From an uncultured Acidobacteriota bacterium (GTDB lineage Bacteria; Acidobacteriota; JAAYUB01), in NCBI GenBank assembly GCA_937925645.1, contig CALAMB010000189.1, positions 62,001-126,000 on the forward strand: DNA of 64,000 nucleotides. Direction: 5' to 3'. Every line of letters begins with the position of its first letter. The first letter of the stretch is position 1. Shown piece by piece: positions 28,667 through 34,384 of this stretch. A program made the translations under genes and the position numbers. The notes below the pieces were generated by a model. It was not told the DNA's origin, did not search any database, and was given only the letters and a program-made list of their open reading frames with translations.

Positions 28667-28851
28667 TTTGACTCCCCAATATGATCAGTGTACTCGGCCT
28701 GCCTGAAAACGCTCTCTGAGATGCGCGGTGCAGCGTGGCGATTCTCAGATACTACGCGGATCATAGAAATTCCGCTCTGCGGTTGCCGTGGCCCTGGTCC
28801 GGCTCATGACCCGCAACGCGTGCCGCCCGCACCCGATCCCACAAATTGTGC
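28667..28851. other. Spacer upstream of the his promoter
   Basis: Divergent spacer between the beta-barrel gene and the his operon promoter. It contains a 7-bp inverted repeat, TCTGAGA (28715-28721) and TCTCAGA (28743-28749), 21 bases apart, of unknown meaning. No gene was recognised. Confidence 0.3.
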
Positions 28852-28880
28852 TTGACACATACTCCCTGCTTGGATATCTT
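28852..28880 (+). promoter_or_regulatory. his operon promoter
   Basis: Perfect -35 TTGACA (28852-28857), a 17-base spacer, and -10 TATCTT (28875-28880). The expected start is near 28887, only about 11 bases before the first leader-peptide ATG, so the leader transcript begins almost at the ribosome site GAGG (28888-28891). Confidence 0.8.
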
Positions 28881-28898
28881 GTGCGGCGAGGTCAACGA

Positions 28899-28979
28899 AT
28901 GGTTACCGCAACAGTCTCCCGGCATCATCACCACCATCACCCGAACCCCGGGCCGGGCACCGGTGCGCGCGCTGTTTAG
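28899..28979 (+). CDS. his operon leader peptide 1 (six consecutive His)
   Basis: A 26-residue peptide that begins MVTATVSR, then has six consecutive histidine codons (28923-28940) and ends at TAG 28977. GAGG seven bases before the ATG is a plausible ribosome site. As in enteric hisL, a ribosome short of His-tRNA would stall on the His run. GGCCGGG (28951-28957), inside the peptide gene and downstream of the His codons, can pair with CCCGGCC (29013-29019), the 5' arm of terminator 1. Translation to the stop would cover that segment and let the terminator form. Regulation is inferred; the sequence elements are directly visible. Confidence 0.88.
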   Translation: MVTATVSRHHHHHHPNPGPGTGARAV

Positions 28980-29010
28980 TCATCTACTTTCACAGCACAG
29001 ATCACACCAA

Positions 29011-29035
29011 CCCCCGGCCTTGGCCGGGGGTTTTT
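29011..29035 (+). terminator. Attenuator terminator 1 of the his operon
   Basis: A GC-rich stem formed by CCCCCGGC (29011-29018) and GCCGGGGG (29023-29030) with a CTTG loop, followed by TTTTT (29031-29035). It lies 31 bases after leader peptide 1 ends, as expected for an attenuator. Confidence 0.88.
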
Positions 29036-29087
29036 AGTTTATGGTGCCGTTTTGTGAAAAATGCTCGCTTCGTCGTAGGATGAACAC

Positions 29088-29219
29088 ATGAAACCAAGCA
29101 AGGCAGAATCGATTAACACCCAACAACCAGCATTCAGCCGCCGGTCATCTGACGCTGAACTTTTCGCTGCGCCGTTTCACGCCCATTACCATCACCACAT
29201 CCACATCCCTCCCGGGTGA
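29088..29219 (+). CDS. his operon leader peptide 2 (His-rich C-terminus)
   Basis: A 43-residue peptide beginning MKPSKAESINT. Its end contains HAHYHHHIHIPPG, with six His among the last 13 residues. AGGA seven bases upstream of the ATG is a good ribosome site. The final codons include CCCGGGTG (29211-29218), a perfect complement of CACCCGGG (29253-29260) in the 5' arm of terminator 2 and an exact copy of its 3' arm. A ribosome stalled on the His codons (29178-29204) would leave this segment free to act as antiterminator; one at the stop codon would cover it. Sequence alone strongly supports a second, independent attenuator in series. Confidence 0.85.
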   Translation: MKPSKAESINTQQPAFSRRSSDAELFAAPFHAHYHHHIHIPPG

Positions 29220-29252
29220 CGGCGCACGCGGCACATCGTCCCACGTTTCCCT

Positions 29253-29284
29253 CACCCGGGCTCAGACGCCCGGGTGTTTTATTT
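29253..29284 (+). terminator. Attenuator terminator 2 of the his operon
   Basis: A nine-base-pair stem, CACCCGGGC (29253-29261) with GCCCGGGTG (29268-29276), a six-base loop, and TTTTATTT right after. It ends just before the hisG ribosome site AAGGAG (29285-29290). Confidence 0.9.
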
Positions 29285-29295
29285 AAGGAGCCATC

Positions 29296-30159
29296 ATGAT
29301 CAACAATGACCGAATTCAGTTGGCGTTGCCCAAGGGGCACATGTACGCCGCAGTGGAACAACTGCTGGGGGATGCCGGCCTGGCCGTGCTGGGCAACGGC
29401 CGCAACTATCGCCCGGTCTGCGCCGACGACCGGTTCGAGCTGAAGATCCTCAAACCCCAGAACATCGTCCGGATGGTGGAGCTCGGGTCCCACGATGTGG
29501 CTTTCGCCGGCTACGACTGGGTGGTGGAACTGGGCGCGGATGTCCGCGAGCTGCTGGATACCGCCCTGGACCCGGTCTGCCTGGTGGCTGCGGCGCCGCA
29601 GGAGCCGGCCGGGGATCCGGCGTTCTTCCGCCGTCGGTTGCTGGTGGCCTCGGAGTATGAAACCATCACCCGCCGCTATCTGGACGGCCGCGGCGCGGAT
29701 TATCTCTTTATCCGCAGCTATGGCGCCACCGAAGTGTTTCCGCCCGAAGACGCCGACCTGATCGTGGATAACACCGCCTCCGGCCGCACGCTGCGGGAAA
29801 ATGGGCTGGCCGTCGTAGACGAATTGCTGCGCTCATCAACCCGGCTTATCGCCAATCCCGCCGCCATGGACGGTCCCAAAGGGAAAACCATCGCCGAGTT
29901 GGCGATGCTGGTTCGGGCTGTGCTGGACGCCCGCAACCGGGTCATGCTGGAAATGAACGTGGCCGATGAGCGCTTGCCCGCGGTATTGGCTGTCCTGCCC
30001 TGCATGCGCAAGCCCACCATGTCCAGTTTGTCCGACGAAGCCGGTTTCGCCGTCAAGGCCGCTGTGCCCCGGGCCCAGGTTGCCCGGCTGATTCCAGAGC
30101 TGAAAGCCGCGGGCGCCACCGACATCCTTGAATATCCCTTTTCCAAGGTGGTGCTGTGA
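29296..30159 (+). CDS. hisG: ATP phosphoribosyltransferase, long form
   Basis: First step of histidine synthesis: ATP plus PRPP gives phosphoribosyl-ATP. The 287-residue length and the C-terminal domain of about 75 residues (EMNVADERLPAVLAVLPCMR ... ILEYPFSKVV) mark the long, His-feedback-inhibited form that needs no HisZ. Catalytic-domain signatures include LALPKGHMY, LKPQNIVRMVE and DLIVDNTASGRTL, the PRPP-binding loop. AAGGAG five bases upstream fixes the ATG. It is the first structural gene after the double attenuator, so enzyme feedback and transcription attenuation both act on the pathway entry. Confidence 0.97.
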   Translation: MINNDRIQLALPKGHMYAAVEQLLGDAGLAVLGNGRNYRPVCADDRFELKILKPQNIVRMVELGSHDVAFAGYDWVVELGADVRELLDTALDPVCLVAAAPQEPAGDPAFFRRRLLVASEYETITRRYLDGRGADYLFIRSYGATEVFPPEDADLIVDNTASGRTLRENGLAVVDELLRSSTRLIANPAAMDGPKGKTIAELAMLVRAVLDARNRVMLEMNVADERLPAVLAVLPCMRKPTMSSLSDEAGFAVKAAVPRAQVARLIPELKAAGATDILEYPFSKVVL

Positions 30160-32415: not shown

Positions 32416-33164
32416 TGAAACGAATCATCCCCTGCCTGGATGTCAAGGACGGCCGGGTGGTGAAAGGCGTCCGGTTTCAAGGCCTCCGCGACGGCGGCGA
32501 CCCTGTGGAGCTGGCCCGGCGCTACTATGCCGACGGCGCCGACGAGCTGGTTTTCCTCGACATCACCGCCGGCCTCGAGGGGCGGAGAACTGTCGGCGAG
32601 CTGGTGGCGAAGACCGCCCGGACGGTGTTCGTGCCCCTCACAGTGGGCGGGGGCATCTGCAGCGTGGCCGACGCCCGGCGTCTGCTCCGCTCCGGTTGCG
32701 ACAAGGTAGCGGTCAACACGGCGGCCGTGCGGCGGCCGGAGCTGCTGTCGGAATTGGCGGACGGGTTCGGACGCCAGTGTGTGGTTTTGGCCGTGGACGC
32801 ACTGCGGACGGAGACCGGTTACCGGGTGGTGGTGGATGCCGGCCGGACGGTGACGGAGCTCGAGTTGACCGATTGGTTACGCCGGGGCCAGGCATTGGGC
32901 GTCGGTGAGATTCTGCTCACCGTCATCAACGCCGACGGCCGACAGGAAGGGTACGACTTGGCGGGCCTTCGGCAGGCCGGTGCTGTTTGCCGGGTGCCTG
33001 TCATCGCATCGGGCGGCATGGGCACCGCCGCACATATGGTCGACGCCGTGGCGGCCGGTGCGGATGCCCTCCTGGCCGCCTCGGTGTTCCATTACGGCCG
33101 GTACACGGTCCGTTCGCTGAAGGCCGAATTGAGCCGCCGCGGCGTTGAGGTCCGGCCATGCTGA
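32409..33164 (+). CDS. hisF: Imidazole glycerol phosphate synthase, cyclase subunit
   Basis: The (beta/alpha)8 barrel that closes the imidazole ring, releasing AICAR, which PurH (60074-61645) can consume. A 251-residue protein with RIIPCLDVKDGRVVKGV (catalytic Asp of CLDV), LDITAG, TVGGGI, the second catalytic Asp in VVLAVDAL, and IASGGMG. The loop normally read as TSMDxDG appears here as TVINADG, a mild variation. GAAGGAGG seven bases before the ATG at 32409 supports the start. It overlaps hisH and the next gene. Confidence 0.96.
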   Translation: MLMKRIIPCLDVKDGRVVKGVRFQGLRDGGDPVELARRYYADGADELVFLDITAGLEGRRTVGELVAKTARTVFVPLTVGGGICSVADARRLLRSGCDKVAVNTAAVRRPELLSELADGFGRQCVVLAVDALRTETGYRVVVDAGRTVTELELTDWLRRGQALGVGEILLTVINADGRQEGYDLAGLRQAGAVCRVPVIASGGMGTAAHMVDAVAAGADALLAASVFHYGRYTVRSLKAELSRRGVEVRPC

Positions 33165-34384
33165 TCCCGAGCATCGATCTGATGGGCGGCCGAGCCGTCC
33201 AGCTTGTGGGCGGGCGCGACAAGGTGTTGGAACAGGGCGACGTCGAAGAGTTGGCCCGCCGATTCGGCGTGTACGGCGAGATCGCCGTGATCGACCTGGA
33301 TGCGGCGCTTGGCCGTGGCGACAACGGCGAACTGGTCCGGCGGCTGTGCCGTATCGCCCGCTGCCGCGTCGGCGGCGGCATTCGCGACGAGCGGTACGCC
33401 GCCGAACTGCTCCGCGCCGGGGCAGCCCGGCTGATCATCGGTACGGCCGCGGAAGAAGCACTCCTGACCCGGCTGCCCCGAGACCGGGTCCTGGTGGCCG
33501 TGGACCATGACCGCGGCCACGTGATGAGCCACGGTTGGCGTCAGGATACCGGCGAGTCGCCCGCCACACGCATCCGCCGGTTGGCCCCTTTCTGCGGCGG
33601 CTTTCTGGTGACGGGAATTCACCATGAAGGGCGGATGGAAGGATTCGCCATGGAAGAGATCCGGGAGTTGCGTGAGGCTGCCGGTCAACCCGTGACTTAC
33701 GCCGGCGGCGTCACGACAGCCGCCGAGGTGGCGGCGCTTGATCGGTTAGGTGTTGACGCCCAGGTGGGTATGGCCTTGTACACCGGCCGTCTGGACCCCA
33801 CCGAGGCGTTCCTCGCCTGTCTGGATTTTGACAAAGAAGGCGGACGCTTGCCGTGTGTGGTCCAAGACATCGCTGGCCGGGTGCGCATGGTCGCATGGCA
33901 GACTCCGGAAAGCCTGCGTGAGGCCTTTCGCACCGGACGCGGCGTATATTTTTCGCGCCGCCGCCAGAATTTGTGGACAAAGGGTGAAACCAGCGGCCAC
34001 GTCCAGCGGCTGGTCCGGGTTGGGCCCGATTGCGACCGGGATACGCTCCTGTTCACGGTGGATCAGGAAGGCCCGGCTTGCCATACCGGTTCGGCCGGAT
34101 GCTTCGGTTTGCTGGACTTCGCCACGGCGGACCTGGAGGCGGTGTTGCGCCAGCGTGTCCAAAACCCCGTCAACGGCAGCTACACCTGCCGCCTGCTGCG
34201 CGAGCGGGGCCTGCTGGCGGCCAAACTGCGCGAAGAGGTGGATGAAGTGATCGAGGCCGCCGGGCGGACGGACGACCTGGTGTGGGAATGCGCCGACGTT
34301 CTGTACTTTTTGTTGGTTCAGATGACGGCCGGTGGAATCAGTTTTAGCAACGTACTCAGTGAACTGGAACGACGGAGGAGGTAA
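33158..34384 (+). CDS. hisAIE: Trifunctional HisA-HisI-HisE fusion
   Basis: A 408-residue protein joining three consecutive-pathway enzymes. Residues 1-about 222 are HisA (ProFAR isomerase): MLIPSIDLMGGRAVQL, VAVDHDRG with the second catalytic Asp, and YAGGVTT. Residues about 225-320 are HisI (PRA-CH): VVQDIAGRVRMVAWQ, VYFSRRRQNLWTKGETSGH, metal Asps in DCDRDTLLF and Cys in ACHTGSAGCF. Residues about 325-408 are HisE (PRA-PH): NPVNGSYTCRLL, KLREEVDEVIEAA and ECADVLYFLLVQM. HisIE is a common fusion; adding HisA in front looks uncommon. No frameshift is needed. It would catalyse the second, third and fourth steps (PRA-PH, PRA-CH, then isomerase). The ATG overlaps the hisF stop. Confidence 0.94.
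   Translation: MLIPSIDLMGGRAVQLVGGRDKVLEQGDVEELARRFGVYGEIAVIDLDAALGRGDNGELVRRLCRIARCRVGGGIRDERYAAELLRAGAARLIIGTAAEEALLTRLPRDRVLVAVDHDRGHVMSHGWRQDTGESPATRIRRLAPFCGGFLVTGIHHEGRMEGFAMEEIRELREAAGQPVTYAGGVTTAAEVAALDRLGVDAQVGMALYTGRLDPTEAFLACLDFDKEGGRLPCVVQDIAGRVRMVAWQTPESLREAFRTGRGVYFSRRRQNLWTKGETSGHVQRLVRVGPDCDRDTLLFTVDQEGPACHTGSAGCFGLLDFATADLEAVLRQRVQNPVNGSYTCRLLRERGLLAAKLREEVDEVIEAAGRTDDLVWECADVLYFLLVQMTAGGISFSNVLSELERRRR

Follow-up and report, generated by a model that had tools for sequence, protein, structure and literature searches.

Does the histidine operon of this uncultured Acidobacteriota bacterium carry two attenuators in series, and what would a second one contribute? Attenuation is a textbook mechanism, and the enterobacterial hisL leader contains one attenuator unit. 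The leader before hisG in the window—the whole 64,000-nt stretch of DNA analyzed here—resembles hisL in placing a promoter, a His-run leader peptide, a terminator, and a competing antiterminator ahead of the his operon, but it contains two units instead of one. The reading we favor, with a probability of roughly 0.8, is that these are two complete ribosome-mediated attenuators, both reading charged tRNA-His and standing in series between one promoter and hisG. The tandem leader is real and conserved, and it is probably functional.

Anatomy of the leader

The preliminary description had proposed two complete units before hisG, and every element of both could be located: In each unit, a ribosome-binding-site motif and a His-rich mini-ORF are accompanied by an intrinsic terminator, whose 5′ arm is complementary to a segment farther upstream (Table 1). 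Segment 2 of unit 1 forms seven Watson–Crick pairs with CCCGGCC at 29013–29019 in the terminator 5′ arm. Segment 2 of unit 2 forms nine pairs with TCACCCGGG at 29252–29260, eight of them within the stem; the lengths of 7 and 8 bp given earlier thus hold, with a ninth pair in unit 2 by sequence. As judged from sequence, antiterminator and terminator pairing would be mutually exclusive in each unit. A scan of the leader gives two terminator-like sites (29009–29032 and 29253–29276), against 0.8 in shuffles.

Table 1. Features of the his leader and of the first gene of the operon (positions in the window)
Feature	Position	Strand	Remarks
Promoter-like site	28852..28880	+	TTGACA, 17-nt spacer, TATCTT; from the sigma-70 scan; before both units
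Leader peptide gene 1	28899..28979	+	26 aa, six consecutive His; GAGG motif upstream; translation MVTATVSRHHHHHHPNPGPGTGARAV
Unit 1 segment 2 (antiterminator 5′ strand)	28951..28957	+	GGCCGGG
Unit 1 intrinsic terminator hairpin	29009..29032	+	10 pairs, then TTTAGTTTAT
Leader peptide gene 2	29088..29219	+	43 aa, six His in the last 13 residues; translation MKPSKAESINTQQPAFSRRSSDAELFAAPFHAHYHHHIHIPPG
Unit 2 segment 2 (antiterminator 5′ strand)	29211..29219	+	CCCGGGTGA; overlaps peptide 2 stop codon
Unit 2 intrinsic terminator hairpin	29253..29276	+	9 pairs, then TTTTATTTAA
hisG, long form with HisG_C domain	29296..30159	+	ATG at 29296, preceded by AAGGAG

The operon is ordered hisG-C-B-H-F-A/I/E-D, with hisG as its first gene. 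One forward-strand ORF (33158–34381) encodes a three-domain HisA–HisI–HisE fusion (PF00977, PF01502, PF01503). The fusions of his genes named in the available part of a 2007 paper are hisA/hisF, hisIE, hisHF, hisNB, and hisIED; HisA–HisI–HisE is not among them there (PMC1963479).

A single promoter ahead of both units had also been proposed, and a sigma-70 scan of 28700–29400 agrees, returning the site at 28852–28880 as its sole match. Shuffled sequences average 0.4 matches, and the scan alone is weak evidence for a promoter at this position. Unit 2 could instead be transcribed from a separate promoter that lies in the inter-unit gap or overlaps hairpin 1; the series would then be parallel starts, a reading that we regard as very unlikely. 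Such a promoter would escape the scan if it used another sigma factor, and nothing positive speaks in its favor. Against it, both hexamers and the 17-nt spacer before unit 1 are conserved in three close relatives, and no sigma-70-like site occurs between the units, including 29036–29087, where the preliminary description had held that a strong promoter would make unit 2 independent. Moreover, hairpin 1 lies just 14–24 nt from the peptide 2 start in 9 of the 13 genomes with a tandem leader (the window's and 12 relatives), a gap that could accommodate a separate promoter only if the promoter overlapped hairpin 1. Given this gap and the missing inter-unit site, a transcript that reaches hisG should have passed both hairpins, as the series of two attenuators would require.

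Pairing strength by itself separates the leader from chance only moderately. When segment 2 and the terminator 5′ arm of the window were treated as isolated duplexes and compared with shuffles, P values were 0.012 for unit 1 and 0.016 for unit 2. Across the 13 genomes, P ≤ 0.05 was reached by six units 1 and two units 2 (8/26 in all, the unit 1 value of L113 being misplaced by a late His). When unit 2 partners were swapped across clades, 87 of 720 permutations were as good as the matched duplexes, which are thus not clearly better than swapped ones. Conservation is stronger evidence against chance than these duplex statistics.

Conservation and phylogenetic spread

The preliminary description had let its case depend on conservation in relatives. 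Of the sampled genomes, 12 have a HisG with 65% or higher identity to that of the window, and every one of them carries the two units. Among the best 80 of 466 loci, the closest HisG sequences come from Acidobacteria MAGs (93 and 91% identity), and the next tier, at 65–68%, comprises one Acidobacteria MAG and Holophagaceae; by its HisG, the window thus belongs to the acidobacteria. Six genomes make up the order-level group that includes the closest one; hisG matches were found in four, each of which carries both units. These order-level genomes are absent from the 93 genomes of a class-level search centered on a Holophaga genome; the tandem leader therefore spans two class-level groups.

Counterparts of both peptides occur in 12/12 relatives, and runs of at least three His are found in both units of the window and of every relative, some ribosome-site motifs being short. 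In one relative (L007), peptide 2 lacks its stop codon: The codon reads TTG, about 71 nt before the hisG start (on a contig shared with L087), and the reading frame stays open across the terminator as far as the hisG start, perhaps through decay or an assembly error. Among the window and three close relatives, both peptides keep length and frame, and non-synonymous codon changes equal or exceed synonymous ones in 12/12 pairwise comparisons, the pattern that leader peptides would be predicted to show. Between more distant genomes, conservation of peptide 1 is poor. We also considered whether peptide 2 ends in a PPG-stop stalling motif and dropped the idea: The last residues are PSG in L113 and L005 and PHPG in L084, with the pairing segment kept.

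The distribution was quantified with a detector that reads the 450 nt before each hisG and requires a His-rich ORF, a ribosome-site-like motif, and a hairpin after it. From 103 HisG rows, with five excluded from the count for having less than 300 nt upstream, the detector returned two units in 12 of the 13 tandem-group genomes; the exception was L007, missed through its lost second stop codon. Among 85 other hisG loci none had two units, 10 had one, and 75 had none, a count in which leaders beyond 450 nt are missed (for example, near −500 in L117 and L120–L125). With an added rule of at least four T in the eight bases past the hairpin, 8/13 genomes keep two units, and the five that are lost, L007 included, are those with a poor hairpin 1 U-tract. 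A looser rule, without the ribosome site, found one His-rich ORF in 36 of 90 other tree rows and two in 0/90. None of 18 further Acidobacteriota hisG upstream regions, drawn from 19 new loci of which the out-of-register L193 was left out, had two units. Inspection covered 700 nt before hisG; within that distance, no His leader was seen in 16 of the 57 weak HisG matches (L095–L110), where hisG may not be the first gene.

The 13 tandem genomes group together (support 100/97), with one state change, in a maximum-likelihood tree of 103 HisG rows, the label "two units" having been assigned by hand to these rows after inspection. This topology fits a single origin of the tandem leader, and operon and leader may have been inherited or transferred together, the tree being compatible with either. 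Because the tandem-group genomes are related, the counts above are not independent. Both units lie on both sides of the group's deepest split (HisG 65–68% identical to that of the window), and the earlier judgment that recent duplication was unlikely fits this placement. We set recent duplication aside: The two units extend across the whole group, and their peptides share little beyond the His codons.

Single leaders were also encountered. One His-rich ORF with a terminator-like hairpin stands before hisG in L030, L039, L055, L056, L058, L060, L068, L088, L092, and L094, which belong to Myxococcota, Planctomycetota, Sumerlaeota, and Holophaga relatives; several lack a ribosome-site motif. These sequences suggest that attenuation of his operons may extend beyond the groups usually named for it.

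Other amino acid operons of these genomes provide a comparison. A scan of trpE covering 15 of 20 loci found one Trp-rich leader in five genomes (G075, G006, G081, G079, and G078), with a terminator detected in 4/5. The corresponding loci, L160–L164, each have one ORF with at least three Trp in six codons; a second ORF also listed for L160 and L162 was taken as chance. In L161, for example, the leader peptide is 28 residues long, and four codons within a stretch of six specify Trp. No Trp leader was found in L165–L168, from the window's order (G001, G097, G002, and G003), where the matches start inside the protein. At the 13 of 20 leuA loci scanned, there was no Leu leader and one chance-like ORF. 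Within the operons examined, sequence comparison thus places doubling only at his; the contrast of double his with single trp concerns five Holophaga-side genomes, four of which have a poor hairpin 1 U-tract.

Predicted switching of the two units

In the proposed mechanism, a ribosome waiting at the His codons would leave segment 2 free, and free segment 2 would capture the terminator 5′ arm before the 3′ arm is made, so that RNA polymerase would read on. A ribosome past the His codons would cover segment 2, and the terminator would form. The polymerase would meet gate 1 and then gate 2, each with a separate ribosome, and total read-through would be roughly the product of the two. We infer that both hairpins would terminate transcription in vivo in a His-dependent manner.

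This scheme was modeled by folding each unit up to the terminator loop with a ribosome-sized unpaired footprint set on each codon. The shift was defined as the antiterminator probability over the His run minus its last codon, less that over the codons from two past the run to the peptide end; controls were 60 shuffles per unit, preserving dinucleotides, of all sequence before the terminator. Capture of the terminator 5′ arm tends to be high with the A site on His codons and to fall afterward. The shift is positive in 26/26 units and exceeds 0.2 in 25, averaging 0.38 (unit 1) and 0.52 (unit 2), against a shuffle mean of about 0.01 (per-unit spread 0.11–0.28). Single-unit P values were ≤0.05 for 7/13 units 1 and 7/13 units 2; the rows being related, the 26 units are not 26 independent tests. 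As a yardstick, 14 hand-picked single His or Trp leaders gave 13 positive shifts, 11 above 0.2 and 5 with P ≤ 0.05. By this model, the individual units appear comparable to ordinary single attenuators.

The two units of the window differ in the sharpness of the predicted switch. Antiterminator probability in unit 2 drops from 0.89 on the His run to 0.00 past it, and the antiterminator is already lost when the last His codon occupies the A site. In unit 1, it drops from 0.60 to about 0.4 (P = 0.115) and recovers to about 0.5 once the ribosome reaches the stop codon; unit 1 is the weaker switch in the model. A ribosome that has reached the stop codon leaves segment 2 of unit 1 unmasked and re-paired with segment 3 in L001 and L002, so unit 1 would have to act by timing, during the ribosome's passage over the codons that follow the His run.

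Unit 2 is also the cleaner switch on average over the 13 genomes, as would be the case if it alone gated hisG and unit 1 mainly made a short terminated RNA or peptide acting in trans. Trans action of this kind is reported for the trpL-derived peTrpL of Sinorhizobium in the portion of that paper available (PMC7298713). We consider such a division of labor improbable. The unit 1 shift is positive and His-dependent in 13/13 genomes and exceeds the unit 2 shift in 7/13; a source of small RNA would not need a His-dependent shift, which therefore counts against a role in trans only. The scan, moreover, returned no second promoter-like site, so a terminator at unit 1 would gate hisG anyway, and the poor conservation of peptide 1 among more distant genomes argues against its acting in trans.

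Two further folding results bear on how the series would operate. In folds lacking a ribosome, 14/19 units have segment 3 engaged in the antiterminator at a probability of ≥0.5, which leaves tight repression without translation unexplained. With the whole terminator in the fold at equilibrium, the terminator stays at ≥0.64 at every His position in eight of the nine units tested, and only L003 unit 2 flips; the switch in the model therefore works only if pairing occurs during transcription, and we infer that capture is co-transcriptional. Folding with ribosome footprints, the check suggested in the preliminary description, gave a positive shift in all 26 truncated units but no switch in eight of nine units at full-terminator equilibrium. 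In silico, the leader is by functional class a ribosome-mediated amino acid attenuator: It has His-codon ORFs, terminators, and a position-dependent antiterminator, the last solely for transcripts ending before the terminator 3′ arm.

Hairpin 1 varies within the group. Its U-tract is poor in 5/13 genomes (L006, L007, L083, L084, and L086) and proper in the window and seven others; in the five, hairpin 1 is very strong and lies shortly before the peptide 2 ribosome site. Possibly, though we doubt it, hairpin 1 is no longer an intrinsic terminator in these five genomes, and unit 1 either tunes peptide 2 translation or uses Rho. Hairpin tails such as TTCTCGCATTC and a peptide 2 start only 14–20 nt away are compatible with this view, and the stem-loops of the mgtCBR leader are, in the accessible text, described as unlike intrinsic terminators, with Rho suggested (PMC3641672). 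The proper U-tracts of the window and the seven other genomes point the other way, as does the His-dependent pairing of unit 1, which persists in all five. Loss of hairpin 1 termination there can hold together with two gates in series in the window.

Known systems and the possible meaning of a second gate

At the gathering threshold, Rfam found no family in the whole window, T-box models included. With permissive settings, all matches stayed below threshold; the His_leader model (RF00514) scored unit 1 at 24.9 bits, against a cut-off of 49 (E = 0.12), and unit 2 was not among the matches. Proteobacterial attenuators have reportedly been surveyed by Vitreschak et al. in 2004. In the part of the open-access literature that was searched, no case of ribosome-mediated attenuation doubled for a single amino acid came to our notice.

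Several known leaders share single features with this one. In the Salmonella mgtCBR leader, two ORFs in series likewise act on transcription of one operon; according to the part of that report available, its units sense different signals (ATP and proline) and its stem-loops do not resemble intrinsic terminators (PMC3641672), whereas both ORFs of the window are His-rich and both units have terminators. Different signals of the mgtCBR type were not found in any tandem leader, both ORFs being His-rich by codons in 13/13 genomes. Tandem T-boxes for His before an Enterococcus transporter also sense one signal twice and are thought, in the sections available, to sharpen the response (PMC9413887). 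T-boxes bind the tRNA directly, whereas here a translating ribosome would be the sensor; and the same sections ascribe T-box doublings to possible recent duplication (PMC9413887), whereas these His units are old. The ermB leader also has two ORFs before one gene, but its available description is of erythromycin-induced translational attenuation, not amino acid supply (PMC8274638). The rimP leader of several Gammaproteobacteria resembles the present one in its tandem terminators, the upstream one with a potential antiterminator, but the excerpt available does not describe it as a system of leader peptides for amino acids (PMC2965389).

The sensitivity of attenuation has been modeled for his and trp leaders, as the accessible part of one study describes (PMC1183508). 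The conserved doubling, as read from sequence, suggests that the tandem leader does a job beyond that of one switch. We give about even odds to the more specific proposal that the two-gate series, older than the split of the two Acidobacteriota class-level groups (or of their his operons), is a multiplicative gate. If the gates are independent, the benefit would follow arithmetically as a product of read-throughs and a sum of logarithmic sensitivities, and the response to His limitation would be steeper with two gates. A multiplicative gate would mean independent ribosomes, a basal leak that is squared, and a logarithmic sensitivity to charged tRNA-His that is doubled relative to a single hisL. 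As a natural series of two gates for the same signal, long kept while trp is single in five genomes, the tandem his leader would make the tuning of sensitivity and leak testable by removing either gate.
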